From: Phycisphaeraceae bacterium
GTDB lineage: Bacteria; Planctomycetota; Phycisphaerae; Phycisphaerales; UBA1924
Length of the DNA stretch: 64,000 nucleotides
Reading direction: 5' to 3'
Assembly (NCBI GenBank): GCA_019636615.1
Contig: JAHBXF010000001.1
Location: 868,001 to 932,000 of the forward strand
Positions 7,945 to 30,298 of this stretch are shown here, piece by piece (position 1 is the first letter of the stretch; each line of letters begins with the position of its first letter). Position numbers and translations under genes: made by a program. The notes below the pieces were generated by a model. It did no database searches. It had not been told where the DNA came from and was given only the letters and a program-made list of their open reading frames with translations.

Positions 7945-8760
7945 CTAATTTGCAGAGGCGCATCCGCAACACGGAGTGGCGGGCGCTGGTGGTGGGGTAC
8001 AAACGTCGGGACAACAAGGTGTCTCGCGTTTACTATCCCAAGGGTCAGGATTCTGAATTGGCACGCCACCACACGGGGGCTGGCCCGGAGCGTACTGGTA
8101 CATCGGAAACGTATTCCAAGTTAGCGTCCCATCGGCGATTAACGCGGTACACAATGTCGTCGTGGTGTTATTAGTTGGAGCGTTGCCACACCACTCTACC
8201 CAATAGAACGTCCAGTCCGCTAAAGATCTTTCCTTACGGACATGCTTCGTCCATGTTTGGCGAAGATACCGATCAAAACACATAATCCGAGTCCGGTTAC
8301 GTGTGATCTGGGTGGTCTCGGTATGGGTAGCACTCAGCGATTGCTGTTCGGATTGCGTCAGTTGGTAGTTATATCCAATTGCCGCAAAAATATGCGCACG
8401 TAGAGCAAGGCCGAATTCATGAGTACCGGACTGTCCCACTGTGATCGACCATTGGCCAGTGTCGGTCACTGTGATTGTATCAATATCTGGAGGACACGAA
8501 GGACATGGCACATAGTGAGGGTACCATGCGCAGGCACAGTAAGGCACCAACTCCCATTGCGTGAACATTTGTTCCGATTCATGGGAGAGCAGTTCGTATC
8601 GATGTTCAACACTTGCGTTGTCGTATTGCCAATTGCAACCGGGGCCAAGCCCACCTTTGGGGGGTTCGTAGGCGGACACACTGCAAATGGCTACAGGCTC
8701 TCCTGCTCCGAGCAGTGGTACAAATGCCAATGCCACCGCCAAGCTCAACATTCTATGCAT
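7945..8760 (-). CDS. Secreted cysteine-rich protein of unknown family
   Basis: A 271-residue product with signal peptide MHRMLSLAVALAFVPLLGAG. The mature part has about 16 cysteines, many clustered (CACAW, CPSCPP, CCPDVC, CCGC), which suggests disulfides outside the cytoplasm. A central Thr/Ser/Gln-rich stretch (residues ~120-150, with TQSEQQSLSATHTETTQITR) separates the two cysteine-rich ends. I recognise no family. Base composition is near 50% G+C, well below the neighbours, which hints at acquisition or relaxed selection. A GAGG-type ribosome-binding site precedes the ATG. It may be co-transcribed with the TPR-like gene downstream. Confidence 0.65.
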   Translation of the reverse strand: MHRMLSLAVALAFVPLLGAGEPVAICSVSAYEPPKGGLGPGCNWQYDNASVEHRYELLSHESEQMFTQWELVPYCACAWYPHYVPCPSCPPDIDTITVTDTGQWSITVGQSGTHEFGLALRAHIFAAIGYNYQLTQSEQQSLSATHTETTQITRNRTRIMCFDRYLRQTWTKHVRKERSLADWTFYWVEWCGNAPTNNTTTTLCTALIADGTLTWNTFPMYQYAPGQPPCGGVPIQNPDPWDSKRETPCCPDVCTPPPAPATPCCGCASAN

Positions 8761-9053
8761 CTGCCTCTACCCCTCTCGATGTGGCCGACTACAGCAAGAA
8801 CAAGTCAAGATCAATCCCTGTATTCGACCGATTTCCCATTGTGCCCGCTTAAGTCCAACTAGTCAAGAAGAAAATCGGCAAAGTTTCTGATTTTTCACGA
8901 ACTTTAGGACGGCGTTGGACGTACGCGCCAAATGTTTGTTTTTTGTTTGGAATTGTGGACCGCTTGTGCTTACTCCAACTCCCCCATTCTCCCTAATACT
9001 CCGTCACTCAGCCAGCCGATAATTTCTTCCCCCCTCCCCTACACTCGCCCCAC
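8761..9053. other. AT-rich intergenic region between divergent genes
   Basis: This gap separates the minus-strand cysteine-rich gene from the plus-strand aminopeptidase. It has unusually low GC, with T-runs around 8930-8945. A TACACT hexamer at 9040-9045 lies 8 bases before the aminopeptidase ATG and would give a nearly leaderless transcript. No ORF here is convincing. Confidence 0.6.
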
Positions 9054-10598
9054 ATGTTCACCAACGTCTCTATCGGGAAGGGTGCGAGCCCTTGTGTCGT
9101 CTTCGGTTTCTTCGGCGAGAAAGGCCAGCCCGCCCCCCTCGACGCCCAGACCAAGGCCCGCGTGGCCGGGCTGGGTCTCAGCGAGGCCGTGAGCGCGGCA
9201 CTCGCCCGTCCTGATTGCACCGGCGATGCAGGCTCCATCACCGAGGCCTTCATCACCGCCGCCCCCGCCAAGGGGCGCGCCAAGGCCCGCACCCAGCCGA
9301 TCGAGCGAGTGCTGCTGGTGGGCCTGGGCAAGGCCGCGGATGTGACCGCCAACACCCTGCGCAGCGCCGGCGCCGCCGTGGGCCGCAAACTCGCCGCCGC
9401 CAAACTCACCAGCGCGGCCTTTGAACTCGAAGGCGCCCTGAACGCCGCCAAACTCGACCCCGCCGCCGCCGGCAACGCCGTCGGCGAGAGCATCGGCCTG
9501 CTCGCATGGGTCTGCGACGAGTTCCGCGGCAAGGCCACCCCCGCGCCCAAACGCACCCGCCTGCAACTGGTCGCGGGCGATGCCACCTTCGCGCAGGGTC
9601 TGTCGCGCGGCCTGGGGCTGGCCACCTCGGCCAACTTCGCCCGCACCCTCAGCCAGACACCCCCCAACGTCGCCACGCCCATGTGGATGGCCCAGCAGGC
9701 CCAGCGCATGGCCCGCCAGACGGGCCTCTCGTGCCGGGTGATGAGCGGCAAAGACCTCGAACGCGAGAAGTTCACCGGCCTGATCAACGTCGGCAAGGCC
9801 AGCGAGAACGAGCCGTGCATGATCCGGCTGGAATACACGCCGCCGCGCGCCTCGGCGCGGGCCACCTCGCGCCCCACGGTGCTTGTGGGCAAGACGATCT
9901 GCTATGACACGGGCGGCCTCTCGCTGAAAGTCAATAACGGCATGGTGGGCATGAAGCGCGACAAAGACGGCGGGTGCGCGGTTCTTGGCGCGATGCACGC
10001 CATCGCCACCGTCATCAAGCCGCGCGTGCGCGTCGTCGCCCTGCTGGCCGCCGCGGAAAATAGCATCAGCGACGAGGCCTACCGCCCCGACGACGTGCTC
10101 ACCTTCCGCAACGGCGTCACTGTTGAAGTCACCAACACCGACGCCGAGGGCCGGCTGGTGCTGGCCGACGCGCTCTGCTGGGCCTGCGACAAAGAGAACC
10201 CCTCGGCCATCATCGACCTGGCCACGCTTACCGGCGGCGTCATCACCGCCCTGGGCAGCACCTACGCGGGCCTCTTCTGCGAAGACGACAAACTGCGCGC
10301 CCGCATCGACGCCGCCTCGGCCGCCAGCGGCGAGCGCGTGTGGCGCCTGCCCATGCACCAGGAATACCGCGACATGATGAAGAGCCCCGTCGCGGACATC
10401 GTCAACAGCAACCCCAACCGCAAGGCCCACCCCATCCAGGGCGCGGCCTTCCTCTCCTACTTCGTCGCCGACCGCACCCCCTGGTGCCACCTCGATATCG
10501 CCGGCGTGCATGTGGCCGAGCGCAACGCCGGGCCATACATCGACGGCCCCAACGGCTGGGGCGTGCGGTTGTTGGCCGAACTGCTCGACCGGGCCTGA
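9054..10598 (+). CDS. pepA: Leucyl aminopeptidase (M17 family)
   Basis: A 514-residue cytosolic di-metal aminopeptidase that removes N-terminal residues from peptides. The C-terminal catalytic domain carries the M17 signature NTDAEGRLVLADAL (~360-374). The upstream metal and catalytic segment is GKTICYDTGGLSLK, followed by a KRDKDGG stretch that matches the lysine/aspartate ligand region of E. coli PepA. QTPPNVATP marks the entry to the catalytic domain. Length is normal for the family (~500). The N-terminal macro-like domain is divergent. No Shine-Dalgarno sequence is visible; TACACT at 9040-9045 sits where a -10 box would be for transcription starting about two bases before the ATG. Confidence 0.93.
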   Translation: MFTNVSIGKGASPCVVFGFFGEKGQPAPLDAQTKARVAGLGLSEAVSAALARPDCTGDAGSITEAFITAAPAKGRAKARTQPIERVLLVGLGKAADVTANTLRSAGAAVGRKLAAAKLTSAAFELEGALNAAKLDPAAAGNAVGESIGLLAWVCDEFRGKATPAPKRTRLQLVAGDATFAQGLSRGLGLATSANFARTLSQTPPNVATPMWMAQQAQRMARQTGLSCRVMSGKDLEREKFTGLINVGKASENEPCMIRLEYTPPRASARATSRPTVLVGKTICYDTGGLSLKVNNGMVGMKRDKDGGCAVLGAMHAIATVIKPRVRVVALLAAAENSISDEAYRPDDVLTFRNGVTVEVTNTDAEGRLVLADALCWACDKENPSAIIDLATLTGGVITALGSTYAGLFCEDDKLRARIDAASAASGERVWRLPMHQEYRDMMKSPVADIVNSNPNRKAHPIQGAAFLSYFVADRTPWCHLDIAGVHVAERNAGPYIDGPNGWGVRLLAELLDRA

Positions 10599-15298: not shown

Positions 15299-18200
15299 AT
15301 GCCTACGCCGTTTCTCCGCCGCACCCGTCCCGCGCTGCTTCTCACGCTCTGCGCGGGAACGGCCCTCGGCGCGCTCGCCGCGCCGGCCCACGCCGATGTC
15401 GAACCCACGGCCGCGATGCTCCGCTGGCCTGACGTGAGCCAGACGCACATCGTCTTCTCCTACGCCAACGGGCTGTGGATCGTGCCCAGGAGCGGCGGGC
15501 GCGCCGAGCCCATCGCCAACCCTCCGGGGCAGGAGTCATTCCCGCGCTTCAGCCCGGACGGCAAGCGCATCGCCTTTGTGGGCAACTATGACGGCAACCG
15601 CGACCTGTACACCGTGCCCGTCTCGGGCGGCGTGCCCCATCGCGTGACACACCACCCCGGGGGCGAGATTCTGTGCGACTGGGCCCCGCCCGCCTACGGC
15701 ACGGGCAACGAACTGCTCTTCCTGACCAACGGCCTGGCCGGGCTCTCGCGCCAGACGCAGATCTTCTCGGTTGATGCCAAGGGTGGGCTGCCCACGCAAC
15801 TGCCGGTCCCGTACGCGGGCTTCGGCGCGCTGAGCCCCGACGGCCAGTGGCTGGCCTACACCACGCACTCCACCGATTCGCGCACCTGGAAGCGTTACCG
15901 CGGCGGCATGGCCACCGACGTGTGGCTCTTCAACATCAACACCAAAGAGAGCCGCATGGCCACCGACTGGGAGGGCACCGACACCCTGCCCATGTGGGTG
16001 CCCGGCGGCGACGGCGCCGCGTTCTATTACATTTCCGACCAGGGCCCCGAGCACCGCCTGAACATCTGGAAGTACACCCTGGCCGACGGCCGGCGCGAGC
16101 AGATCACCACCTACGCCAACGACGACGTGAAGTGGCCCAGCATCGGCCCGGGCGACAACGGGCAGGGAGAGATCGTCTTTCAACTCGGCAGCGAACTGCG
16201 CCTCTTCAACCTCGGCACCCGCCAGGACCGCGTGGTGAAGGTGACCATCCCCGGCGACCGCCCCACCGTTCGCACGCGCATCGTCGACGCCGCGCGGAAC
16301 ATCTCCTCCGCCTCGATCTCACCGGCGGGCAAGCGGGTGGCGATCGAAGCGCGCGGCGACATCTGGTCTGCGCCCGCCAAAGAGGGCGTGACGCGCAACC
16401 TTTCACGCACCGACGGCGTCTTTGAGCGCGGGCCCGCGTGGTCTTCAGACGGCCGTTGGATCGCGTATTTCTCCGACCAGGACGGCGAGTACGACCTGTG
16501 GATTCGCCCCGCCGACGTGCGCACGCCCGCCAAGCCCGACGCCGCCAAGGCCCCGGAGAAGGACGAGGGCGAGGAAGTGGTGGATGAACACGCCTGGCTG
16601 CGGTCCCCGCCGCGCCGGCTGACCGACCTGGGCCCGGGTTTCCGCATGGGTATCGTGTGGTCGCCCGACGCCAAGCACGTCACCTATACCGACAACGGCG
16701 GTCGCATCTATCTCACCAATATCGAGAGCGGCGACACCAGGACCATCGACGCCAACCCGTGGGGCAACCCCGTGGGCGTCTCGTGGTCGCACAACTCGGC
16801 GTGGATCACCTACGCCATGTCGGAGGACAACCCCCTCTCGAGCAACGGCGTTGTCTATCTCTACAACGTGGCCAGCGGCGAGAAGCACGCCCTGACCAGC
16901 CCCATGTTCAGCAGCGGCTCGCCCGCCTTCGACCGCAAGGGTGAGTTCCTCTACTTCACATCCAACCGCATCATCAACGCGCCGATGTACTCTGACATCG
17001 ACAGCACCTTCATCTACACGGGCACACAGGCCCTGTACATGGTGCCCCTGCGCTCGGACGTGAAAAACCCCTTCGCCCTGCGCAACGACGAAGAAGACTT
17101 CAAGAAAGACGACAAGAAGAAGGAAGACAAGAAAAAAGACGAGAAGAAAGACGAACCCGCGGGCGATGACGCCAAGAACGGCGACAAGAAGGACGACGCC
17201 AAGGCCGACGACGGCCTGAGCGGCACCTGGTCCGGCACGGCCACCAGCGACACCGGCCAGCCCCCGGGGGGCATCCCCCTCACGATCAAGATCTCCCTGG
17301 GCGCGGGCGGCTCCATCAGCGGCACCATCTCCAGCCCCATGGGCGAAGGGCAGATCACCGGCGGCTCATTCAACAAAGCCACCGGCGCGCTGACCATCAA
17401 CCTCTCGGTGGGCCCCATCGCGGTCACCATCGAGGGCACCGTCTCGGGCGAGCAGTTCAGCGGCTCGTGGACCTCACCCCAGGGGGGCGGCACCTTCAAC
17501 GCCAACCGCACCGCCAGGGCCGGCGCCGAGAACGGCGCGGGCGACAAGGCAAGCGCCGACAAGCCCGCCGACGCCGCCAAAGACTTCACCATCGAGATCG
17601 ACGGCTTCGAACGCCGCGCGATCCAGTTGCCTGTTCCCTCGGGCTCCTTCGGCAACCTCAACGTCACGCACGACGGCAAACTCATCTACGCCCGCTTCGG
17701 GGCGCGCGGCGGCAGCGAAGGGCCTTCGATCCGCATCTTCGACCCCGCCGACGAGGCACGCGAAGAGAAAGTCGTGACCGCCGGCGCGGGGTCGTTCGAT
17801 CTCTCGGCCGACGGCAAGAAGATTCTGGTGCGCCGGGGCGGCTCATTCTCGGTGATGGACGCGGCCGCCGGCGGCGGCAAGAGCAGCACCGTGCCCACCT
17901 CGGGCATGCTCACCCACGTCGATCCGCGCAGCGAGTGGCGGCAGATCTTCAACGACACCTGGCGCCTGCAGCGCGACTATTTCTACGAAGACACCCTCCA
18001 CGGCGTGGACTGGAACAAGGTGCGCGACCACTACGGCCGCATGCTCGAAGAGTGCATCACCCGCGAGGACGTGGCCTATGTGCAGGCCGAGATGATCAGC
18101 GAACTCAACGTCGGGCACGCCTACCTGAGCAACCCCGGCGATGTTGAATCCGGCCCGCCCAGCCTGCCCGTCGGCCTGCTGGGGTGCGACTTTGAACTCG

Positions 18201-19156
18201 TCGACGGCGCCTACCGCATCGCCCGCATCTATGGCGGGGCCGACTGGGACGCCGACGCGCGCGGCCCCCTCTCGCAACTGGGCATGAACATCAAAGAGGG
18301 TGACTACTTCCTCGCCGTCAACGGTGTGCCTGTTGACACCAACAAAGACCCCTGGGCCGCGCTCATCGGCGCTTCCGGGCGCGTCACCGCCATCACCGTG
18401 GGCCCCAACCCCGCCATCGACCGCGAGGCGCGCGAGGTGCTCGTCACGCCCACGGGCAGCGAGGTCAACCTGCGCTACCGCGCCTGGATCGAGGCCAACC
18501 GCGCCTACGTCGACAAAGCCTCCGACGGCAAGATCGGCTATATCTATGTGCCCAACACCGGCGTTGACGGCCAGAGCGACCTCTTCCGCCAGTTCGTCGG
18601 CCAACGCGGCAAGCCCGCCCTGATCGTCGACGACCGCTGGAACGGCGGCGGCCAGATCCCCACGCGCTTCATCGAACTGCTCAACCGCCCCGCCACCAAC
18701 TTCTGGGCGCGCCGCCACGGGCACGCGTGGCCCTGGCCGCCCGATGCGCACTTTGGCCCCAAGGCCATGCTCATCAACGGCCTGGCCGGCTCGGGCGGCG
18801 ACATGTTCCCCTGGCTCTTCCGCCACAACAACCTGGGCAAACTCATCGGCATGCGCACCTGGGGCGGCCTGGTGGGCATCTCGGGCAACCCGGGCCTGAT
18901 CGACGGCGGCGCGATCACCGTTCCCACCTTCGGCTTCTACGAGACCGACGGCACGTGGGGCGTTGAAGGCCACGGCGTTGACCCTGATATCGAGGTGATC
19001 GACGACCCGGCCAAGATGGTGAACGGGCGCGACCCCCAACTTGATGCCGCGGTGCAGCACCTGCTCGAAGAACTCCGCGTGCGCCCCTTCGTGCCGCCCG
19101 CGCGGCCCGCGAGCCCTGACCGCTCACGCATGGGCATCACCGAAGAGGATAAGTAA
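15299..19156 (+). CDS. Secreted tricorn-like protease (S41 family) with inserted beta domain
   Basis: A 1285-residue exported protein with signal peptide at residues 1-33. Residues ~35-590 are WD40/PD40-like propeller repeats (FPRFSPDGKRIAFVGNYDG, PAWSSDGRWIAYFSDQDGEY). A very acidic/basic KKDDKKKEDKKKDEKKDE tract spans ~600-638, followed at ~639-735 by a Gly/Thr/Ser-rich beta domain not part of archaeal tricorn. The tricorn core then contains His940 in VGHAY and a PDZ segment (LGMNIKEGDYFLAVNGVPVD). The S41 nucleophile is Ser1165 in GLAGSGGDMF. The propeller probably gates unfolded peptides to the catalytic centre. An AGGAA ribosome-binding site precedes the ATG. The gene ends before a strong terminator. 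Confidence 0.88.
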   Translation: MPTPFLRRTRPALLLTLCAGTALGALAAPAHADVEPTAAMLRWPDVSQTHIVFSYANGLWIVPRSGGRAEPIANPPGQESFPRFSPDGKRIAFVGNYDGNRDLYTVPVSGGVPHRVTHHPGGEILCDWAPPAYGTGNELLFLTNGLAGLSRQTQIFSVDAKGGLPTQLPVPYAGFGALSPDGQWLAYTTHSTDSRTWKRYRGGMATDVWLFNINTKESRMATDWEGTDTLPMWVPGGDGAAFYYISDQGPEHRLNIWKYTLADGRREQITTYANDDVKWPSIGPGDNGQGEIVFQLGSELRLFNLGTRQDRVVKVTIPGDRPTVRTRIVDAARNISSASISPAGKRVAIEARGDIWSAPAKEGVTRNLSRTDGVFERGPAWSSDGRWIAYFSDQDGEYDLWIRPADVRTPAKPDAAKAPEKDEGEEVVDEHAWLRSPPRRLTDLGPGFRMGIVWSPDAKHVTYTDNGGRIYLTNIESGDTRTIDANPWGNPVGVSWSHNSAWITYAMSEDNPLSSNGVVYLYNVASGEKHALTSPMFSSGSPAFDRKGEFLYFTSNRIINAPMYSDIDSTFIYTGTQALYMVPLRSDVKNPFALRNDEEDFKKDDKKKEDKKKDEKKDEPAGDDAKNGDKKDDAKADDGLSGTWSGTATSDTGQPPGGIPLTIKISLGAGGSISGTISSPMGEGQITGGSFNKATGALTINLSVGPIAVTIEGTVSGEQFSGSWTSPQGGGTFNANRTARAGAENGAGDKASADKPADAAKDFTIEIDGFERRAIQLPVPSGSFGNLNVTHDGKLIYARFGARGGSEGPSIRIFDPADEAREEKVVTAGAGSFDLSADGKKILVRRGGSFSVMDAAAGGGKSSTVPTSGMLTHVDPRSEWRQIFNDTWRLQRDYFYEDTLHGVDWNKVRDHYGRMLEECITREDVAYVQAEMISELNVGHAYLSNPGDVESGPPSLPVGLLGCDFELVDGAYRIARIYGGADWDADARGPLSQLGMNIKEGDYFLAVNGVPVDTNKDPWAALIGASGRVTAITVGPNPAIDREAREVLVTPTGSEVNLRYRAWIEANRAYVDKASDGKIGYIYVPNTGVDGQSDLFRQFVGQRGKPALIVDDRWNGGGQIPTRFIELLNRPATNFWARRHGHAWPWPPDAHFGPKAMLINGLAGSGGDMFPWLFRHNNLGKLIGMRTWGGLVGISGNPGLIDGGAITVPTFGFYETDGTWGVEGHGVDPDIEVIDDPAKMVNGRDPQLDAAVQHLLEELRVRPFVPPARPASPDRSRMGITEEDK

Positions 19157-21747: not shown

Positions 21748-22782
21748 TTGGAAAGTTGTTCGCCCAAAGTTCAGGGTATTTCTGCGCCCGCATCGTGCAC
21801 CCCTTCCCAAGCGTGCCATGCAGGGCCGGCTATCGCTTCTCCCTCGCTGCTTCAACTCGTCGGCCGTTCTCAGGCGATGGACCGGGCCCGGGAACTCCTG
21901 CTGCTGGCCGCGGGCTTTCCTTCCACCGTGCTGCTGCACGGCGAGAGCGGCACGGGCAAGGAACTGGCCGCGCGGGCCATTCATGAACTGAGCCCCCGCA
22001 GCGCGGCCCCCTTTGTCACGGTGGACTGCACCGTGCTCACCGAAACACTCTTCGAATCGATCCTCTTCGGTCACGAGCGGGGCTCGTTCTCGGGCGCGAT
22101 CGCCAGCACCACCGGCCTGGTGCGCGCGGCCGATGGCGGCACCCTCTTCCTCGATGAGATCGGCGAACTGCCCGCCCCCGAGCAGGCCAAACTGCTGCGC
22201 CTGCTGCAGGAGCGCACCGTGCTGCCCGTGGGCGGCACGCGCCCCATCCCGGTGGATGTCCGCGTCGTCGCCGCGACGCACCGCGACCTGCCCGCTATGG
22301 TGCTCGACGGCCGCTTCCGCGCCGACTTGTATTACCGCCTCGATGTCGTGCGCATCACGCTGCCGTCGCTGCGCGACCACGCCTCCGACATTCCCCTCAT
22401 CGCCGCCGCGATCCTGCGTCGGCTCAACACGCTGCTGGGTGTGAGCCGCGCCCTCTCGCCGGCCGCGGTCGACACGCTGATGCTCCACGCCTGGCCCGGC
22501 AATGTGCGTCAACTCGCCGCGTGCCTCGAGCGGGCCGCCGTGACCTGTCGCGGCGACACCATCGAGCCGCGCGACCTCGGCCTTCCGCACCTCGAGCCCG
22601 TCATCTCAACCCAGCCGCTCCTCAAACGCTCTGCGGCCGAGGCCGTTCGCTTCGCGCTGGCCGAGGCTAACGGCAATCGTGCCGCGGCGGCGCGCCGTCT
22701 GGGCATCGGCCGCGCCCAACTCTACAGAATGATCGACCGCTTCGGCATCGACGCCACCCCGTCCACCAACGGCGAAGCCTGA
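21748..22782 (+). CDS. Sigma-54-dependent transcriptional activator (AAA+ enhancer-binding protein)
   Basis: A 344-residue bacterial enhancer-binding protein. After only ~40 residues without a recognisable sensory domain comes the AAA+ domain. It has Walker A GESGTGKE (~65-72), the sigma-54 contact loop as GSFSGA (~112-117, usually GAFTGA), Walker B GGTLFLDEIGE (~130-140), and the arginine-finger region GRFRADLYYRLDV. A Fis-type helix-turn-helix ends the protein (AEANGNRAAAARRLGIGRAQ, ~300-320). The lack of a receiver or GAF domain recalls PspF, controlled by partner proteins rather than phosphorylation. The TTG start at 21748 is tentative, but the LVGRSQAM segment shows that translation begins upstream of residue 36. 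A terminator follows at 22811. A -24/-12 promoter lies 384 bases downstream of its stop. Confidence 0.88.
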   Translation: MESCSPKVQGISAPASCTPSQACHAGPAIASPSLLQLVGRSQAMDRARELLLLAAGFPSTVLLHGESGTGKELAARAIHELSPRSAAPFVTVDCTVLTETLFESILFGHERGSFSGAIASTTGLVRAADGGTLFLDEIGELPAPEQAKLLRLLQERTVLPVGGTRPIPVDVRVVAATHRDLPAMVLDGRFRADLYYRLDVVRITLPSLRDHASDIPLIAAAILRRLNTLLGVSRALSPAAVDTLMLHAWPGNVRQLAACLERAAVTCRGDTIEPRDLGLPHLEPVISTQPLLKRSAAEAVRFALAEANGNRAAAARRLGIGRAQLYRMIDRFGIDATPSTNGEA

Positions 22783-23070: not shown

Positions 23071-23165
23071 GTGGTGCGCCCCGCGCGCCCCGCGATGATG
23101 CAGGTACAAGGCCGACGCACGTGTGCAAGGCCGCCGCGGGCGAGCGCGATCGCGCCGATCGGGTT

Positions 23166-23181
23166 TGGCACGCCCCTTGCA
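23166..23181 (+). promoter_or_regulatory. Sigma-54 (-24/-12) promoter
   Basis: TGGCACG at 23166-23172, four bases, then TTGCA at 23177-23181 match the RpoN consensus TGGCACG-N4-TTGCW at every position. The conserved GG and GC are separated by the required ten bases. Transcription should start near 23192 and run into the 128-residue gene. It was the only site of this quality I found in the window. Confidence 0.88.
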
Positions 23182-23262: not shown

Positions 23263-23649
23263 ATGGATGAACGCATCCTGCGGGACGTGCTGGGGGATGA
23301 CGCGCGGCTTGTGGCCGTGAGCAACTCCGACACCACCGCCGTCGCCATCCGCCGGCTCATCGAGGCCGGGGCGACGAACATCCTCGCCATCGCCGACCAC
23401 GAGCAGGCACGCACCTTCGCCCCGATTCTTCACGTCGCACGCTCGCTCGCCAGTTTCAAGCGCATCGTGCTGCTCTACGACTCTGAAACTGATGTCGGGG
23501 TGCTCTTCGGCCACGACGGCCTGCTCTATCTCCGCGACTGCCCCCAGGTGCGCCGCACACTCAAAGACCTCGTTTCGCGTGACAACGCCTCTGTTTTCTC
23601 GCTTCAAAGCCTGCCCGAACCCCTCTCACGCGAAGCCACAGCCCTGTAA
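23263..23649 (+). CDS. Small unknown protein expressed from a sigma-54 promoter
   Basis: A 128-residue soluble protein with alternating beta and alpha character (DARLVAVSNSDTTAVAIRRL, then GATNILAIADHEQAR and FKRIVLLYDSETDVGVLF). It faintly recalls a Rossmann-like or receiver-like fold but lacks the aspartate constellation of a response regulator. I do not recognise it. The ATG at 23263 is chosen; an in-frame ATG at 23197, only five bases after the predicted sigma-54 start point, would add 22 residues (MCSSPLPTRAWTG...). It lies directly downstream of the -24/-12 promoter and ahead of a 71-residue gene, and both are presumably switched on by the adjacent activator. Confidence 0.6.
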   Translation: MDERILRDVLGDDARLVAVSNSDTTAVAIRRLIEAGATNILAIADHEQARTFAPILHVARSLASFKRIVLLYDSETDVGVLFGHDGLLYLRDCPQVRRTLKDLVSRDNASVFSLQSLPEPLSREATAL

Positions 23650-23684: not shown

Positions 23685-23900
23685 ATGCGACAGTCACACA
23701 TCGAAGCCCTCAGCGAGTTCAACGCCGAAGAACTGCTGTGGGTCGCGGCGAACTCGAACGCCCACATGCGTGCCCAGGTCGACCGCGTGCTCGAAGATCG
23801 CGCCGCCAAGGCCCAGGCGCGTCGTTCATCGACCCCGACCCCGGCCCCGGCCCGCAGACACGCACTCCTCGCCCGCGCCGGTTCGGCGCGACGCGACTGA
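23685..23900 (+). CDS. Small unknown protein, second gene of the sigma-54 operon
   Basis: A 71-residue protein: an amphipathic helical N-terminal half (RQSHIEALSEFNAEELLWVA, then a NAHMRAQVDRVLEDRAAKAQ helix) followed by a basic Pro/Ala/Arg tail. An ACGGAG ribosome-binding site precedes the ATG. It starts 35 bases after the 128-residue gene, so it is probably co-transcribed. It is of adaptor or nucleic-acid-binding size, but no family is recognised. Confidence 0.55.
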   Translation: MRQSHIEALSEFNAEELLWVAANSNAHMRAQVDRVLEDRAAKAQARRSSTPTPAPARRHALLARAGSARRD

Positions 23901-24314
23901 CGGTTCTTCCTCTCGCTCACGCGATGTGAGCCCTCCTTTCGCTCCACCAGGTGACGAGCGAGAGGAGCCTCCCGCCGGGGTGAAAACTCCGGTGCGGGGT
24001 TTGCGACAAGCACGACGTCTCCTTCTCCTCTTGCTCGGCGCGCTGTGACAACCGCACGCCGGGAATCTCGAACACCCTGCTTCTCCTCTTGCTCGCCGGG
24101 AAACACACGGCTCGGCGGGCTTTCAAAGGGTGCTTGTTCCCATCCTTGTGCGCTCATGCGAGCCCGCAGGGAGTTTGACGAAGCCTGATCGAGCGCCCGT
24201 TCAACACGGACCTCATCAAGGCGAGGCTCTTTGTGTACGCGGGAGCTGAGAACGTTCGGTCGTTCCTTTCTTCCCGCCCGGCCGCGGGCATCCACTCGCT
24301 TTGGAGAGTTTGAT
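23901..24314. other. Intergenic region carrying repeat element A and the leader of the first PEP-CTERM-like gene
   Basis: It holds the 115-base element A (23953-24067). A second partly conserved stretch at ~24079-24122 also occurs in altered form at ~25205-25250. About 190 bases of unremarkable leader follow, ending with a GGAGAG ribosome-binding site. Confidence 0.6.
23953..24067 (+). repeat. Structured intergenic element, copy A
   Basis: It starts GACGAGCGAGAGGAGCC. A hairpin follows, GCCGGGGT-GAAA-ACTCCGGT at 23974-23993 (GAAA tetraloop), then TTTGCGA, then a 58-base core at 24010-24067 from GCACGACGTCTCC to GCCGGGAATC. The core is identical to that in copy B and differs at two bases in copy C. 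Confidence 0.8.
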
Positions 24315-25076
24315 ATGAAGACATCCGCCTCAACACTCGTCACCGCCTGCACCATCATCGCCTTTGCCGGGGCAGCGCACGCCGCGGTCGTGGGCATCAA
24401 GGGCAACTACTTCGCGAACGATGTCGCCAACGCGCTCGTCAGCGGCGGCAACACCGTTGTGATGCAGCCCGACCTGACCGTGCCCATCGTGGGCATCGAC
24501 TCGCTCTACATCAACCGCGGCTACGCCACGCTGAGCCCGGTTGAGGCCGCCAATGTCGCGGCGTTCGTTGCCGCGGGCGGTTGCGTCGTCACCGAGTTTA
24601 CCGCCTCCAACATGTGGTTCAACGGCACCTTCACAGGCACCGGCATGGACTATTCGGGCACGCTCCTGAACAGTTTCTATGTGCCCAGCGGGGACGTGAG
24701 CGGCAACAACCAGATTCACGTCGTCATCCCCAACCACCCGCTCACGGTGAACGTGGTTTCGCCGTGGATCAGCATGGAGCCTATCGGCGTCTACCAGGCG
24801 TATGACATCGCCACGCTCGACCCGCGCCTTGATGTGCCCGTGGTGCAGTTCAACACGCCGGCCTACGGCACGCTGCCCGTGGTGGCGTACGAGGCCTTCG
24901 GCATGGGCCAGGTCAGCATCTTCTTCACCGACTTTGGCGACTTCGTTCCCTCCGGATTCACCACGCAGGAGTTCATCCTGCTGAGCAACGCGCTGTGCGC
25001 CACCATCCCCGCCCCCGGCGCGCTCGCCATCCTGGGCATGGGCGGCCTCGCCGCGGCCCGCCGCCGACGCGCCTGA
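24315..25076 (+). CDS. Secreted PEP-CTERM-like protein 1
   Basis: A 253-residue protein with a signal peptide (about residues 1-23, ending in AHA). The mature region (VVGIKGNYFANDVANALVSG, then LSPVEAANVAAFVAAGGCVV) has alternating alpha/beta character reminiscent of glutamine-amidotransferase-like domains that some exoproteins carry, but I cannot assign an activity. The C-terminus is a sorting signal: IPAPGALAILGMGGL plus AAARRRRA, that is proline-glycine motif, hydrophobic helix and arginine cluster. Such tails are thought to be cut by an exosortase-type enzyme and attach the protein to the envelope or matrix. Ribosome-binding site GGAGAG. First of six adjacent genes of this class. Confidence 0.8.
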   Translation: MKTSASTLVTACTIIAFAGAAHAAVVGIKGNYFANDVANALVSGGNTVVMQPDLTVPIVGIDSLYINRGYATLSPVEAANVAAFVAAGGCVVTEFTASNMWFNGTFTGTGMDYSGTLLNSFYVPSGDVSGNNQIHVVIPNHPLTVNVVSPWISMEPIGVYQAYDIATLDPRLDVPVVQFNTPAYGTLPVVAYEAFGMGQVSIFFTDFGDFVPSGFTTQEFILLSNALCATIPAPGALAILGMGGLAAARRRRA

Positions 25077-25087
25077 ACCACCACCAA

Positions 25088-25190
25088 CCCCCTCTCGCTG
25101 GCGCGGCAGCGCCCGCGAGGGTTTGCGAATACGCACGACGTCTCCTTCTCCTCTTGCTCGGCGCGCTGTGACAACCGCACGCCGGGAATC
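25088..25190 (+). repeat. Structured intergenic element, copy B
   Basis: The hairpin position is kept but with a different sequence: CTCGC/GCGAG and GGCGC/GCGCC arms close on a GGCA loop (25092-25121). TTTGCGA follows and then the 58-base core at 25133-25190, identical to copy A. It begins 11 bases after the stop of the preceding gene. Confidence 0.8.
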
Positions 25191-25410
25191 TGATCTGGCT
25201 GATCTCCTCCTCTCGCTCGCCGCTTGGCGGAAAACAAACGGCGGGCTTTTCGGGATCGTGTTTCTTCTCCTCGTCTCTCTCACCTCTCGCGCGGCAGCGC
25301 GTGGGCTGAGATTCCTCTTCTCTCGTTCCGGCCTCGTGCCGGATCTCTCGCCGTGACGGTGTGTGCTCCCCCGCGGCTCTCGCGTTTTCTCGTACCAGGA
25401 GTTCTGACCG
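25191..25410. other. Leader region of the second PEP-CTERM-like gene
   Basis: Besides copy B, this gap has a CT-rich stretch and a module at ~25205-25250 (GCTCGCCG... ACGGCGGGCTTTTC) related to 24090-24122. A small hairpin-rich segment lies near 25295-25350, and AGGAG is the ribosome-binding site. No gene is supported. Confidence 0.5.
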
Positions 25411-26250
25411 ATGACCCACACACGCTCACTCTACATGATCACGCTCGCCGCCGGCACCCTCGCGTGCGCCGCTGTGGCCCAGACAGGCAACCCGCTCGCC
25501 GACGGGTGGGTCTCGGGCGGGCACTCGATGCAGAACGGTGTCTACGCCCGCGGCGCCGGCCTCTTTAGTTATGACGTTTTTGCCCAGCAGTTGATGGTGA
25601 CCAGCGGCTCGGCATTCGAGAGCAGCGACGGTGCGTTCTCCTGGCTCGTCGGCGATGAGATCGTCGGTGTCGGCGGTGTCTTCGTCTCGGCCCCCAGCGC
25701 CACCGACAACGGCTGGGCTTCGTACACCACCTCGGTGGGCAACAACGACAACGTCACCTCGTCGCTGCGCATGGTATCGAAGTTCGGTGTTGCCGAGAAC
25801 AGTTGGTCGCCCAGCACCGTCGCCCCCGCCTCAGGCAATGGTTCCACCAGCCACAGCAGCGGCCACGGCGGCACCGGATCCATCATCATCGGCAACACCG
25901 CCGCCGACGTGCCGAACTTTGCCAGCGGCGCGCTGCGTCTGCCGACCGTGGCCCAGATCTACACCGGATCGGGCGTGGCGAACATCGACGCTCGCTTCGG
26001 GCGGATGCAGTACATCCACTCCAACGGCATCGTCTCCTCCTGGCAGGCCTACCTCAACGTCTCGCTTATCGAGCGCGAACTCGGCGGTTCGTACGCCGAT
26101 CTTCCCGCCTGGGGCGACCGCCACAGCGTGGCCACGCAGCGAGGCACGAACAGCACACTCCTCCACGACGCCCTGGTCGTTCCAACCCCCGGCACCGCCG
26201 CGCTCCTCGGTCTCGGCGGCCTTATTGCCTGCCGCCGCCGGCGAGGCTGA
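25411..26250 (+). CDS. Secreted PEP-CTERM-like protein 2
   Basis: A 279-residue protein. Signal peptide MTHTRSLYMITLAAGTLACA to about AVAQ. The mature region is Gly/Ser/Asn/Thr-rich and predicted beta (FSWLVGDEIVGVGGVFVS, NGSTSHSSGHGGTGSIIIG). It has no cysteine until the tail and no domain I recognise. The C-terminus VPTPGTAALLGLGGLIACRR plus RRG is the sorting signal. AGGAG lies upstream of the ATG. Element B and a ~220-base leader precede it. Confidence 0.8.
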   Translation: MTHTRSLYMITLAAGTLACAAVAQTGNPLADGWVSGGHSMQNGVYARGAGLFSYDVFAQQLMVTSGSAFESSDGAFSWLVGDEIVGVGGVFVSAPSATDNGWASYTTSVGNNDNVTSSLRMVSKFGVAENSWSPSTVAPASGNGSTSHSSGHGGTGSIIIGNTAADVPNFASGALRLPTVAQIYTGSGVANIDARFGRMQYIHSNGIVSSWQAYLNVSLIERELGGSYADLPAWGDRHSVATQRGTNSTLLHDALVVPTPGTAALLGLGGLIACRRRRG

Positions 26251-26314
26251 ACGCCACAACACCCGCGCTGCACGGTGCAGCGCTGACTGACCTGAACCTC
26301 CCGCTCGATGGATC

Positions 26315-26427
26315 ACGAGCGAGAGGAGCCTCCGCCGGGGTGAAAGCACCGGTGAGAGGATTGCGAAAAGCACGACGTCTCCTTCTCCTCTTGCTCGGCG
26401 CGTTGTGACAACAGCACGCCGGGAATC
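26315..26427 (+). repeat. Structured intergenic element, copy C
   Basis: The conserved ACGAGCGAGAGGAGCC start is followed by the GCCGGGGT-GAAA hairpin (26334-26353, one G/A mismatch), TTGCGA, and the core at 26370-26427 with two substitutions relative to A and B (C to T and C to A). Confidence 0.8.
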
Positions 26428-26529
26428 CCCGGGCGAGCGAGGGCCATTGGCCCTCTCGCCCCTTCTCGTGTCCTTCTCGCCGTCGGCGCTGTGCCGCGGC
26501 ATGTGTTCTCCTGGAGCGGAGTTTTTCCC

Positions 26530-27210
26530 ATGCAGACCGTTCGTATCGCCGTCCTTTCCGTCATCGCCGCCGCCGCCACCGCCAACGCGGGCATGATCAA
26601 CGCCACCCTCAACAGCATTTCGCCCAGCACCAATATTCGTTATAGCCTCTCGGGCTCGGACTACACCGGCACCACCGCCGGCGTCTTCAACTGGACGCGC
26701 AACAGCGGCGACATCCCCAACCCCGCGGGCCCCACCTTCTCGGCCTTCTGCATCGAACTCACGCAGAACGTCTCGGTGAACAGCAGTTACAACTACAACG
26801 ACACCCCCCTGGCCGGCGCGCCGCTGCCCGGCGGCCCCTACTCCCCCATGGGCGCCGCCCTGGCCGCGCAGATCGCCCGCATCCTCACCGTGTGGGCCAA
26901 CGACGTGACCGGCTCGGCCAACCTGCGGGCCGCCGCCGCGCAGGCCGCCATCTGGGAGACGATCTTCGACACCGACAACAGCCTCACCGACGACGCGGGC
27001 AACTTCTTCCTCGACACCAACCACACCGCGAGCAACAACGTGGCCATCAAGGCCAACGCCTACCTCGTGGCGCAGGCGAGCGCGGCCCCGCGCACCGGCC
27101 TCTTCGCCCTCACCAGCCTCACCCAGCAGGACATGGTCGTCCCTGCCCCCGGCGCGCTCGCGCTGCTGGGCATGGGCGGCCTCGTCGCGGCCCGCCGCCG
27201 GCGCGCCTGA
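26530..27210 (+). CDS. Secreted PEP-CTERM-like protein 3 with possible Cys-Gln thioester
   Basis: A 226-residue protein with signal peptide to residue ~20 (TANA). FSAFCIELTQNV places a single cysteine at Cys74, and AAAAQAAIWETIFD places a glutamine at Gln138. The FC(I/V)E and QxAIW pair is the signature of domains that form an internal Cys-Gln thioester, as in the TED domains of Gram-positive surface proteins. Many PEP-CTERM proteins share the same two segments. The C-terminus is VPAPGALALLGMGGLVAARR plus RRA. Start ATG 26530 with GGAG upstream. Confidence 0.78.
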   Translation: MQTVRIAVLSVIAAAATANAGMINATLNSISPSTNIRYSLSGSDYTGTTAGVFNWTRNSGDIPNPAGPTFSAFCIELTQNVSVNSSYNYNDTPLAGAPLPGGPYSPMGAALAAQIARILTVWANDVTGSANLRAAAAQAAIWETIFDTDNSLTDDAGNFFLDTNHTASNNVAIKANAYLVAQASAAPRTGLFALTSLTQQDMVVPAPGALALLGMGGLVAARRRRA

Positions 27211-27516
27211 GTCAGCCGCGATCGACCCATCCGGGCTTCGCGCGGCCGCCGCGCAACGCCCGTTCATCCCCACGCTCCTCTCCGCTCGGTGCAAGGCGCG
27301 GCGAACGAAAGTCGCCCCGCCCTCTGCCGCAGAGCACCTCCCTCGCTGACACGGCCGACGAGCGAGAGGAGCCCCCCGCCGGTGTGAAAACGCCGGCGCG
27401 GGGTTTCACAGGTTTCTGCGTGATTGTCCGCCTCGGCGAGCGATCACAGCGACGCGTCAGGCCTGGCCAATCTCGGCGCGTCTCGTCCTCTTCGCACGGC
27501 TCATCGGAGTTTCACC
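27211..27516. other. Intergenic region carrying partial element D
   Basis: No gene is supported. It holds copy D at 27357-27406; the remainder is the leader of the next exoprotein gene, without a clear promoter. Confidence 0.5.
27357..27406 (+). repeat. Structured intergenic element, copy D (5' half only)
   Basis: It has the same GACGAGCGAGAGGAGCC start and a perfect eight-pair hairpin GCCGGTGT-GAAA-ACGCCGGC at 27378-27397. After GGGGTTT the similarity stops and the 58-base core is absent. Confidence 0.75.
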
Positions 27517-28164
27517 ATGTCTTCCCGCTCGCTCCTCGTTGTCCTCGCCGGTTCACTCATCGCCGCCTCTGCCGCGCACGCCGACACCATCAACATCGCC
27601 GGCAACCCGATCGGCTCGCCCAACTTCCCCAACGGCCAGGGCAACTACACCGGCACGCTGACCTTCACCGCGCTGAGCGTCAGCACCGGCACGCTCGCCG
27701 TGAGCCTCACCAACACCTCGCCCGGCGGCGACGGCTTCCTCACCGGCTTCGTCATGCTCAACAACGACGACTGGTCGCACGTCAGCGTCTCGCTCGCCGG
27801 CTCGCCCCAGATCAGCAACACGAACTTCCAGAACACGGGCGTCGAAGGCGCCGGGTCATTCGGCGACTTCCGCGGCGGCGCGGCCCTCTCAGGCAACTTC
27901 CTGGGCAACGGCAACCCCGGCAACGGCGTCGCCGTCGGCGGCACCATCACCGCCACCTTCAACATCTCCGGCACGGGCGTCGGCTCGATGTCCGCCTCTG
28001 ACTTCGTGACCCCGATCAACGGCAACGCCCAGTTCGTCGTTCGCTTCCGCGGCTTTGCCGACGGCGGCTCCGACCAGGTGCCCGGCGTCCCCACGCCCGG
28101 CACGGCCATGCTCGCGGGCCTTGGCGCACTGGTCGCCACGCAGCGCCGGCGCGCTCAGCGCTGA
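27517..28164 (+). CDS. Secreted PEP-CTERM-like protein 4
   Basis: A 215-residue protein with signal peptide MSSRSLLVVLAGSLIAASAA. The mature region is beta-rich and low in charge (TLTFTALSVSTGTLAVSLTN, FLTGFVMLNNDDW), as in immunoglobulin-like or jellyroll exoprotein domains that appear in PEP-CTERM proteins with a FxLGTGxxN-type core; no catalytic motif is visible. The C-terminus VPTPGTAMLAGLGALVATQR plus RRAQR is the sorting signal, with Gln breaking the arginine run. Partial element D lies 110 bases upstream. Confidence 0.78.
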   Translation: MSSRSLLVVLAGSLIAASAAHADTINIAGNPIGSPNFPNGQGNYTGTLTFTALSVSTGTLAVSLTNTSPGGDGFLTGFVMLNNDDWSHVSVSLAGSPQISNTNFQNTGVEGAGSFGDFRGGAALSGNFLGNGNPGNGVAVGGTITATFNISGTGVGSMSASDFVTPINGNAQFVVRFRGFADGGSDQVPGVPTPGTAMLAGLGALVATQRRRAQR

Positions 28165-28299: not shown

Positions 28300-28989
28300 A
28301 TGTTGAACACGACTTCGCTGAAACTCTCTCTTGGCTTGTGTCTCGCACTCACGCCCGGCGCGCTCGCCGGGTGGACTTCCGCGACGTTCGCGGGTGGAGA
28401 CGCGGGGTTCAACACGCTCACGAACAACGGCTCGCTGGAACGCAGCGTGGCCGAAGGCCGCATCGGCAACGGCGCCACCTCGGGCACGTGGGAGCGCGCC
28501 CTCTGGCAGCAGGGCGGCGTGGGCATGCCGCAGGCGCAGGGCCAGTTCACGTTCGCCTCGGCCGCTTCGTACGACTGGTCTGTCTCGTGGGACGGCATCG
28601 ACACCGTCACGTTCGTCGTCGATGGCCAGTCTCTCTCGTGGGGCGGTGTGCAGGGCGCGTTCACCGATATCTTCATCCGCACCCGCTCGGGAGCCGACTC
28701 AACCATCCTGCTCTCGGGCATGCAACTCAATGCCCAGCCCATCGCGCCCGCCTCGCTGTTTTCGAGCGGCAACGGCGATGTTGATTACATCCGACTCTCG
28801 CACACCGGCGGCCCGGCCCCCGCGTTCACGCTCAGCGGCAGCGTGGCCATGACCTACGACGCCCTCACCCGCCCGAACAACAGCGCGCTGGCCTGGCAGG
28901 TGAAACTCACCAACGTCATCCCCGCGCCCGGCGCGCTCGCCGTCATGAGCGTCGGCCTCGTGGCCGCGGCCCGCCGCCGCCGCGCCTGA
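28300..28989 (+). CDS. Secreted PEP-CTERM-like protein 5
   Basis: A 229-residue protein. Signal peptide MLNTTSLKLSLGLCLALTPG to ALAG. The beta-rich mature part includes YDWSVSWDGIDTVTFVVDGQ and VDYIRLSHTGG, reminiscent of a carbohydrate-binding-like sandwich, but no family is assigned. The C-terminus IPAPGALAVMSVGLVAAARR plus RRA is the sorting signal. No copy of the repeat element lies in the 135-base gap upstream. Confidence 0.75.
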   Translation: MLNTTSLKLSLGLCLALTPGALAGWTSATFAGGDAGFNTLTNNGSLERSVAEGRIGNGATSGTWERALWQQGGVGMPQAQGQFTFASAASYDWSVSWDGIDTVTFVVDGQSLSWGGVQGAFTDIFIRTRSGADSTILLSGMQLNAQPIAPASLFSSGNGDVDYIRLSHTGGPAPAFTLSGSVAMTYDALTRPNNSALAWQVKLTNVIPAPGALAVMSVGLVAAARRRRA

Positions 28990-29111: not shown

Positions 29112-29894
29112 ATGAAGAAGACACTCCTGCTTTCGGCCCTCGCGGGCATCACCACCTCCGCCCTCGGCGGCATCCTGTACAATACGCCCGGCGATGCGTA
29201 CAGCCAGAACTTTGACAGCCTGGCCAACACCGGCACCACCAACGCCTGGAGCAACAACAGCACCATCGCCGGCTGGCACCTCTTCCAGAAAGATGGCCTC
29301 GCCATCACGCAGTACGCAGCCAACAACGGCGCTTCCACGACGGGGAGTTTCTACAGTTACGGTTCCACCGACTCCACAGACCGCGCGCTGGGCGGCCTGG
29401 GTTCGGGCGGTGCGTACTTCGGCTCTCCTGCCGCCGGGGCTGTCGCGGGCTGGATCGCCATGAGCGTCGTCAACAACACCGGCGGCATGCTCACCGAGTT
29501 CACCATCTCCTTCAACGGTGAACAGTGGCGCAACGGCGGCAATACCACAGCTCAGCCCATGGTGCTCGAATACGGCTTCGGCGCAACATTCGGTGCCGTC
29601 GCCTCGTGGACCGCGCCGGGCGGCACCTTCAACTGGACCTCCCCCGTCGCCACGGCTACCGCCGCGGCCGTGAACGGCAACGCCGCGGGCCTGGTCTCCG
29701 GGCGCGGCGGCACCATCAGCGACCTTTCGTGGAACCATGGCGGCACGCTCTGGGTTCGCTGGGTTGAACTCAACGATGCGGGCAATGACCACGGCCTGGC
29801 CATCGACGATGTTTCCTTCTCGGCCATCCCCACGCCGGGCGCGATCGCCCTGCTGGGTATGGGCGGCCTGATGATCTCTCGCCGCCGCCGCTAA
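29112..29894 (+). CDS. Secreted PEP-CTERM-like protein 6
   Basis: A 260-residue protein with signal peptide MKKTLLLSALAGITTSALGG. The mature start YSQNFDSLANTGTTNAWSNN followed by GWHL is a recurrent opening of planctomycete and proteobacterial PEP-CTERM proteins. A later LAIDDVSFSAIP segment precedes the sorting signal IPTPGAIALLGMGGLMISRR plus RR. Probably one large beta sandwich of the concanavalin/jellyroll type. Ribosome-binding site GGAG. Last of the six genes; a strong terminator follows. Confidence 0.8.
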   Translation: MKKTLLLSALAGITTSALGGILYNTPGDAYSQNFDSLANTGTTNAWSNNSTIAGWHLFQKDGLAITQYAANNGASTTGSFYSYGSTDSTDRALGGLGSGGAYFGSPAAGAVAGWIAMSVVNNTGGMLTEFTISFNGEQWRNGGNTTAQPMVLEYGFGATFGAVASWTAPGGTFNWTSPVATATAAAVNGNAAGLVSGRGGTISDLSWNHGGTLWVRWVELNDAGNDHGLAIDDVSFSAIPTPGAIALLGMGGLMISRRRR

Positions 29895-30298
29895 ACGGCC
29901 GCGGAGCGACCATCCCGCGTTCTGATTTCAATCACCCCGCCCTCCACGGCGGGGTGTTTTCATTCCCCTCGGCGGCCGAACCAACCTATGCCTGTTTCTC
30001 TCTATGGAACACCCTCAGACCCGACCTCGCCCCTCGATGAACCGCCACCCACGCACAGAGGTCGTGAACCGCTCTCGCATCATGGTTATCGGGCTTCCTT
30101 TCTTGTACTCTGCGTCACCGTGGCGTTCAGGCCTGTTTCAATCACGCCTGTTGACGATGCTTCTGGCTGATGGCCGCATCCGGCCTGTCCTGAATCGGGT
30201 ATCTCTTTCTACCAGAACCCCCTATGGCACCCCAACACCTCTCGCCTTGACTCGCTGAGACATAGTCTCAACAATCTCGACCCCTATCTGGAGGACTC
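29895..30298. other. Intergenic region after the exoprotein cluster
   Basis: It contains the terminator at 29933-29960. The remaining 340 bases have lower GC and no supported gene. GGAG precedes the heme oxygenase ATG. Confidence 0.55.
29933..29960 (+). terminator. Rho-independent terminator closing the PEP-CTERM-like cluster
   Basis: CACCCCGCC at 29933-29941 pairs perfectly with GGCGGGGTG at 29948-29956, followed by TTTT. Confidence 0.9.

Follow-up and report, generated by a model that had tools for sequence, protein, structure and literature searches.

A conserved, structured two-module element in the leader and intergenic gaps of sigma-54-type operons for PEP-CTERM-like exoproteins in Phycisphaerales

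The window analysed here is the whole of a 64,000-nucleotide (nt) stretch from a Phycisphaeraceae bacterium (assembly GCA_019636615.1, contig JAHBXF010000001.1, positions 868,001 to 932,000); element and operon coordinates are given on its + strand. Before the first four genes of an array coding for PEP-CTERM-like exoproteins it carries a repeated element. Comparison of sequences indicates that this is almost certainly a genuine, conserved structured element of two modules, which occupies the gaps and the leader of a sigma-54-type exoprotein operon. The original prediction, made from the window alone, had described one element. Instead, two modules of different affiliation can be distinguished: module L is associated with the gene before it, on its 3' side, and module R with the gene after it, on its 5' side.

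Four copies, all in gene orientation, were confirmed by sequence comparison at the positions first reported: A (23953-24069), B (25089-25192), C (26314-26429) and D (27357-27406). Over 59 bases (24010-24068 in A, 25133-25191 in B) the first two copies are identical; the core of C departs from them at two positions, as described earlier. A GCCGG-type hairpin with a GAAA loop is present in A, C and D. Copy B carries a hairpin of unrelated sequence, CCCTCTCGCTGGCGCGGCAGCGCCCGCGAGGG (25091-25123), which nevertheless forms a stem of about 12 pairs followed by UUUGCGA (TTTGCGA in the DNA), as had been noticed at the outset. Missed at that time were a pyrimidine arm behind the stop codon, degenerate second copies of R and the decayed R module of gap D.

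Module L is composed of the pyrimidine arm 3' of the stop codon and the purine strand GAGCGAGAGGAG, which together form stem P0, followed by the GC-rich hairpin P2 (CUCCCGCC, a tetraloop and GGCGNGGGG) and by UUU. The arm is mostly located 6-65 nt past the stop codon and often starts 6-28 nt past it. In gap A, the arm TCCTCTCGCTC (23908-23918) begins 7 nt past the stop codon of the small open reading frame (ORF) orf2 and is a perfect 11-base-pair complement of 23956-23966; the L module (23953-24002) comprises the purine strand (23956-23967), P2 with its GAAA loop and UUU. The corresponding arms are CCTCCCGCTCG (26297-26307) for copy C, whose purine strand and P2 span 26314-26361, and CTCCTCTCCGCTCG (27275-27288) for the L module of D (27357-27406), with a duplex energy of -27.7 kcal/mol. 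Folding of the L hairpins is more stable than that of dinucleotide shuffles (z = -2.7 to -4.2). Module L is found in nearly all element-bearing gaps, in nearly all of them 42-93 nt past the stop codon of a PEP-like gene, and also 3' of the last array gene in the related genome G075.

Module R consists of a C/U tract of 15-20 nt and a subsequent hairpin of about 10-13 pairs (P4) with a CUCG...CGGG base. It stands in tandem (2-5 copies) 5' of the first exoprotein gene in all leaders examined; some gaps contain one copy and others none. In the window, R modules are situated at 24010-24068 in A (C/U tract 24019-24036, P4 24034-24063), at 25133-25191 in B and at 26370-26428 in C. Degenerate second R modules were detected with model R2 in gap A (24077-24123; E value 1.9e-10, 0 of 300 shuffles) and in gap B (25199-25249; E value 7e-10). 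In gap D, the match of model R1, the covariance model built from the four window copies, runs across a decayed R module (27407-27467), whose pairs are broken. As regards a riboswitch, with a ligand-binding aptamer upstream of a coding region, no conserved unpaired core other than the C/U tract was seen.

Two-sided changes across genera support the earlier proposal that structure rather than sequence is conserved. In an alignment of 13 copies that was not fitted to the model, P2 is 93.5% paired and displays two-sided changes at 6 of 13 pairs; 4 of 500 shuffles matched the two-sided count, and none of 500 matched the percentage paired or the covariation score. The same answer was obtained for all helices in 31 copies, where 140 two-sided cells compare with 48 in shuffles (0 of 500) and 28 of 36 pairs are two-sided; these shuffle counts are not probabilities, because the larger alignments, having been fitted to the model, are biased in its favour, and because copies from the same genome share ancestry. 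In 12 held-out copies, which were not part of the model, P2, P3 and P4 again stood at 0 of 500 shuffles, and covariation was weak for P1, a possible pairing of the L purine strand with the C/U tract of R. P0 covaries with the purine strand across genera (GAGCGAGAGGA, GAGCGAGGAGAG, GAGTGTGAG). A coding explanation for the conservation was also considered: copies A and C are open from a GUG in P2 to a UGA in P4, with six Leu codons and several synonymous-looking differences. This leader peptide was discarded: G075 gap 2 (AUC for AUG) and genome G095 lack the start, B has a frame-shifting base, and pairing accounts for the changes.

Within its own genome, the element is confined to the operon. 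Genome-wide BLASTN (3.84 Mb) returned the four copies only (E values 1e-54 to 3e-14), the next match being a sub-repeat of A (E value 0.11), and covariance-model searching of the same genome yielded no copy outside the operon. Likewise, model R2 retrieved the five known copies only, with the next match at E 1.3, and GAGCGAGAGGAGC, allowing one mismatch, is not enriched (30 genome occurrences versus 28 for the reversed control). The supposed link to PEP-CTERM-like genes holds for the array but is not general, as other such genes of this genome are without the element. The idea of a small non-autonomous repeat family fails because the copies are not scattered. A related possibility is a passive repeat, REP-like or arisen by local duplication, that spread without function; the high identity of A, B and C, and of the copies within each genome, does point to recent copying or gene conversion inside the array. 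However, copies dispersed in the genome are lacking, compensatory two-sided changes occur between genera, and position and orientation of the element are constant in all genomes, which leaves a passive origin very improbable. Repetitive extragenic palindromic (REP) sequences and bacterial interspersed mosaic elements (BIMEs) are similar in being short repeated hairpins between genes, but they are defined by many dispersed copies; BLASTN and the covariance model found operon copies only, and restriction to one operon type, fixed orientation and covariation across genera further distinguish the element.

Covariance-model searching of relatives, which the original prediction had proposed, placed the matches in the gaps and leaders of PEP-CTERM-like arrays. 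Model R1 matched G075 (six copies), G095 (two) and G118 (one). With model R3, built from 14 copies, 9 of 163 family genomes from six genera (the window genome and eight others) were found to carry the element. A tenth locus, G025, matches R3 weakly but was recognised by inspection: it shares the layout, with the promoter, R modules in its leader and one L module in the first gap. G223 displays weaker, related gaps. Among the 397 genomes of the class that were searched, the sole match outside the family is a doubtful one in G039 (E value 4e-4), taken as chance, on a 5.5-kb contig without PEP-like genes and with a 35-base insert. Two weak matches in G028 (L321, 2083-2603), on the opposite strand by a different, longer activator gene, were not counted. 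A control search of 80 sigma-54-activator loci drawn from many phyla (1.28 Mb) gave matches in just two, both from Phycisphaerales and identical with G075 and G220, the latter matching Tepidisphaera sp. RI_211. Plain DNA searching of relatives gave background matches only, the own genome apart, and an exact 30-mer search of genome contigs gave no match; weak BLAST hits in relatives, covering parts of A, fall mostly inside long open frames and were therefore regarded as background.

The genomic context of the element recurs as well. At G075, G095 and G118, an activator gene, a -24/-12 promoter, two small ORFs and a PEP-CTERM-like array with elements in its gaps follow one another, and this layout is shared by loci outside the model (G220, G205, G207, G224 and G206, the contig piece of G206 stopping short of the activator). 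At every element locus long enough to judge, the short activator gene, the promoter, the small ORFs and the array are constant. Homologues of the activator are present at all intact element loci, and a sigma-54 promoter is found in the equivalent position at seven other intact loci and at G025. Moreover, the closest activator homologues (E < 1e-119) occur in 11 genomes of the family, nine of which are precisely the nine element carriers, with G025 as the tenth. The eleventh, G078, has a close homologue (G078:C1:2611392-2612246) and no detectable element or PEP-like array, and may represent a state without the RNA element. The element marks one sigma-54 operon type. As a peculiarity of G118, the first gap (L177, reverse complement 8162-9324) extends over 1.16 kb and seemingly contains an extra short gene and a terminator-like hairpin with TTTTT.

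In the window, the operon is preceded by a gene for a sigma-54 activator (enhancer-binding protein; 21748-22782), whose 344 residues comprise an AAA+ domain and a Fis-type helix-turn-helix (HTH; PF00158, E value 5e-63, and PF02954); the Pfam search found no receiver domain. Against TIGR02915, the model for PrsR, the activator scores 300.9 bits with a cut-off of 502.6, only its C-terminal part aligning; being below the cut-off and lacking a receiver domain, it does not classify as PrsR. Situated 3' of the activator gene is the -24/-12 promoter TTGGCACGCCCCTTGCA (23165-23181), the sole exact match to the pattern in the genome. It is followed by orf1 (23263-23649; 128 residues, no Pfam match), which has counterparts by position at other loci, and by orf2 (23685-23900; 71 residues, no known family). 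An orf2-like ORF is present in G075, G095 and G118 and also visible at G205, G207, G220, G224 and G223, with an E(E/Q)LL..A motif kept in several genomes. A second -24/-12-like site is located near the end of orf1, just 5' of orf2, in G075 (L175, reverse complement 5019) and in G095 (L176, reverse complement 6089).

The array proper comprises six PEP-CTERM-like genes: gene 1 (24315-25076), gene 2 (25411-26250), gene 3 with a thioester domain (26530-27210), gene 4 (27517-28164), gene 5 of the choice-of-anchor W type (28300-28989) and gene 6 (29112-29894). Their C-terminal motif is PAP/PTP and not PEP. Gene 3 scores 17.3 with the TIGR02595 domain (cut-off 16), the PF07589 matches in genes 1, 3 and 5 are all below the cut-off, and the remaining array genes gave no match. 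Behind gene 6, a 9-pair stem followed by TTTTCATTCC forms an intrinsic terminator at the operon end (29933-29956; d-score 39.9). A scan of the gaps for sigma-70 promoters performed no better than shuffles, and a scan for sigma-54 sites found none inside them. Given the unique -24/-12 site, the terminator at the end and the lack of a credible internal promoter, a single transcript from the sigma-54 promoter through the array is therefore likely. Conserved gene order extends past the operon, as a large tricorn-like protease gene is found near it both in the window (15299-19156) and at the G118 locus (L177, 541-4434).

A further possible reading takes the dyads as DNA sites, enhancers or operators for the sigma-54 activator or another regulator, and not as RNA hairpins. 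Between the activator gene and the promoter, TGTGAC repeats occur four times each in G075 and G095 (L175 and L176, reverse strand), once in G118 (L177) and not at all in the window, and they are candidate enhancer sites of the activator. Besides these repeats 5' of the sigma-54 promoters of G075 and G095, the dyad GTTGTGACAAC in the R hairpin of window copy C would be compatible with a DNA site. Yet no TGTGAC is present in the R modules of G075, G095 and G118, stem sequences can differ wholly with pairing kept, and GAAA and CAAC tetraloops, G-U pairs and the fixed orientation to transcription all fit RNA, so that action at the DNA level seems hardly credible.

We tentatively favour, at slightly less than even confidence, a cis-acting intercistronic RNA on a polycistronic sigma-54 transcript. 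The element would work in cis at the RNA level, on a single message extending from the sigma-54 promoter across the array. In this mechanism, module L would serve as a leaky intrinsic terminator and as 3'-end stabiliser of the preceding cistron, and module R would form a structure at the 5' end or in the leader of the following one. Together, L and R could partition the polycistronic message into segments that differ in abundance and stability, giving each exoprotein its own dose; pairing of the L purine strand with the C/U tract of R (P1) might provide an additional switch. In favour of this mechanism, the unique -24/-12 site and the strong terminator after gene 6 frame one operon, and the layout recurs elsewhere. 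A role as leader, processing or stability element, as initially suggested, is supported in kind, the mechanism itself being our proposal.

L hairpins resemble weak intrinsic terminators. Like intrinsic terminators and attenuators, L presents a GC-rich hairpin and then UUU soon after a stop codon; 20 of 22 L hairpins have a positive d-score, and, with two exceptions, each is trailed by UUU or UUUU. Unlike terminators, L has a short U tract, is repeated within the operon and possesses the conserved extra stem P0 and a purine strand conserved in sequence. R hairpins have a d-score of 0 or below in more than half of the copies, with tails such as AAUC, AUUGA and UUUCC, and the module lacks the combination of U tract and d-score above 0 that characterises intrinsic terminators. 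Several observations weigh against the favoured mechanism. The U tracts of L are short (3-4 U) and weaker than that of the operon's own terminator. R tails are often without U (AAUC, AUUGA), and R is therefore not a normal terminator. Genes 5 and 6 of the window are not preceded by the element, which is thus not needed in every gap. Finally, P1 is weakly supported in the held-out copies and absent where R is absent.

In a second, rather unlikely explanation, the element is an RNA switch. The GAGCGAGAGGAG strand would have two alternative partners, the stop-codon arm (P0) and the C/U tract of R (P1), and P1 would take the CUCG base of P4 and mask the tract. A terminating ribosome would occlude the P0 arm and thereby promote P1, making each gene's expression contingent on translation of the gene before it. 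Consistent with this, both pairings are strong in gaps A and C of the window and in G075, all three strands have co-changed in G224 (GAGTGTGAG with CTCACACTC), and the P0 arm often begins within the short distance past the stop codon given above. On the other hand, L occurs without R in window D, G095 gap 2, G220, G205 and G207, leaders mostly contain R without L, and the held-out copies show weak P1 covariation; the strands are low-complexity purine and pyrimidine runs, which makes cross-pairing easy. A relay of such switches, with P0 competing against P1 at each array gene border, translation of one exoprotein gene licensing the next and tandem R hairpins guarding the first gene, appears improbable.

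Alternatively, the C/U tracts of R could be loaded by Rho, S1 or another RNA-binding protein, perhaps the product of orf1 or orf2, with the hairpins merely presenting the tracts. Nearly every R has 15-20 nt of almost pure C/U 5' of its hairpin, in tandem in the leaders, and both small ORFs, orf1 and orf2, keep their place across loci and lack any known function. Putative RNA-protein sites of this kind would leave aside the L modules, which are kept without R in many gaps, and we regard them as a doubtful explanation of the element.

No described family corresponds to the element, as had been surmised. A permissive Rfam 15 search of the window locus gave no match at or above the gathering score, the seven related loci gave tRNAs only, and a permissive search of the G075 array gave nothing credible; a literature search of open-licence papers found no description. 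The cip-cel cellulosome operon of Ruminiclostridium cellulolyticum, which undergoes selective RNA processing and stabilisation with intergenic stem-loops that direct cleavage and stabilise both ends (PMC10311766), offers a parallel to the cis-acting intercistronic RNA favoured here. In both cases stem-loops occupy consecutive gaps of a secreted-protein operon, with GC-rich stems flanking the cistrons on both their 3' and 5' sides (PMC10311766, PMC4423207), and those of the window lie 3' of stop codons within one promoter and terminator frame, on what we infer to be a single transcript. In cip-cel, however, processing sites were mapped experimentally, whereas the present element, recognised by sequence comparison, is a single family of Phycisphaerales whose two modules, P0/P2 and tandem C/U-tract hairpins, recur from gap to gap.

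With regard to promoter and activator, the closest comparison is the PrsK/PrsR system, in which pepA is RpoN-dependent (PMC9850573). PEP-CTERM-type genes, a -24/-12 promoter and an NtrC-type activator with a Fis HTH are common to both (PMC1569441, PMC9850573), and a -24/-12 promoter upstream of such genes, as in the PrsR regulon, is found in the window and at other loci. Unlike PrsR, which has a receiver domain, the window activator is short and receiver-less and adjoins the array, and the array carries RNA elements. Haft et al. (2006) reported sigma-54 sites upstream of PEP-CTERM genes only in Proteobacteria, mostly in single-gene operons, and noted that long non-coding regions for which their motif does not account lie upstream of many other PEP-CTERM genes (PMC1569441).

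The locus thus places a sigma-54 activator and promoter before PEP-CTERM-like genes outside Proteobacteria, and for Phycisphaerales it is a possible explanation of the long upstream non-coding regions noted by Haft et al. The element appears to represent a structured RNA family not described before, which covaries strongly and has a narrowly circumscribed genetic context, in a phylum whose RNA-based regulation is little known. The question it addresses is how many secreted proteins may be made in unequal doses from one operon, and since the module recurs up to six times per array and in several genera, the locus makes this question directly testable.

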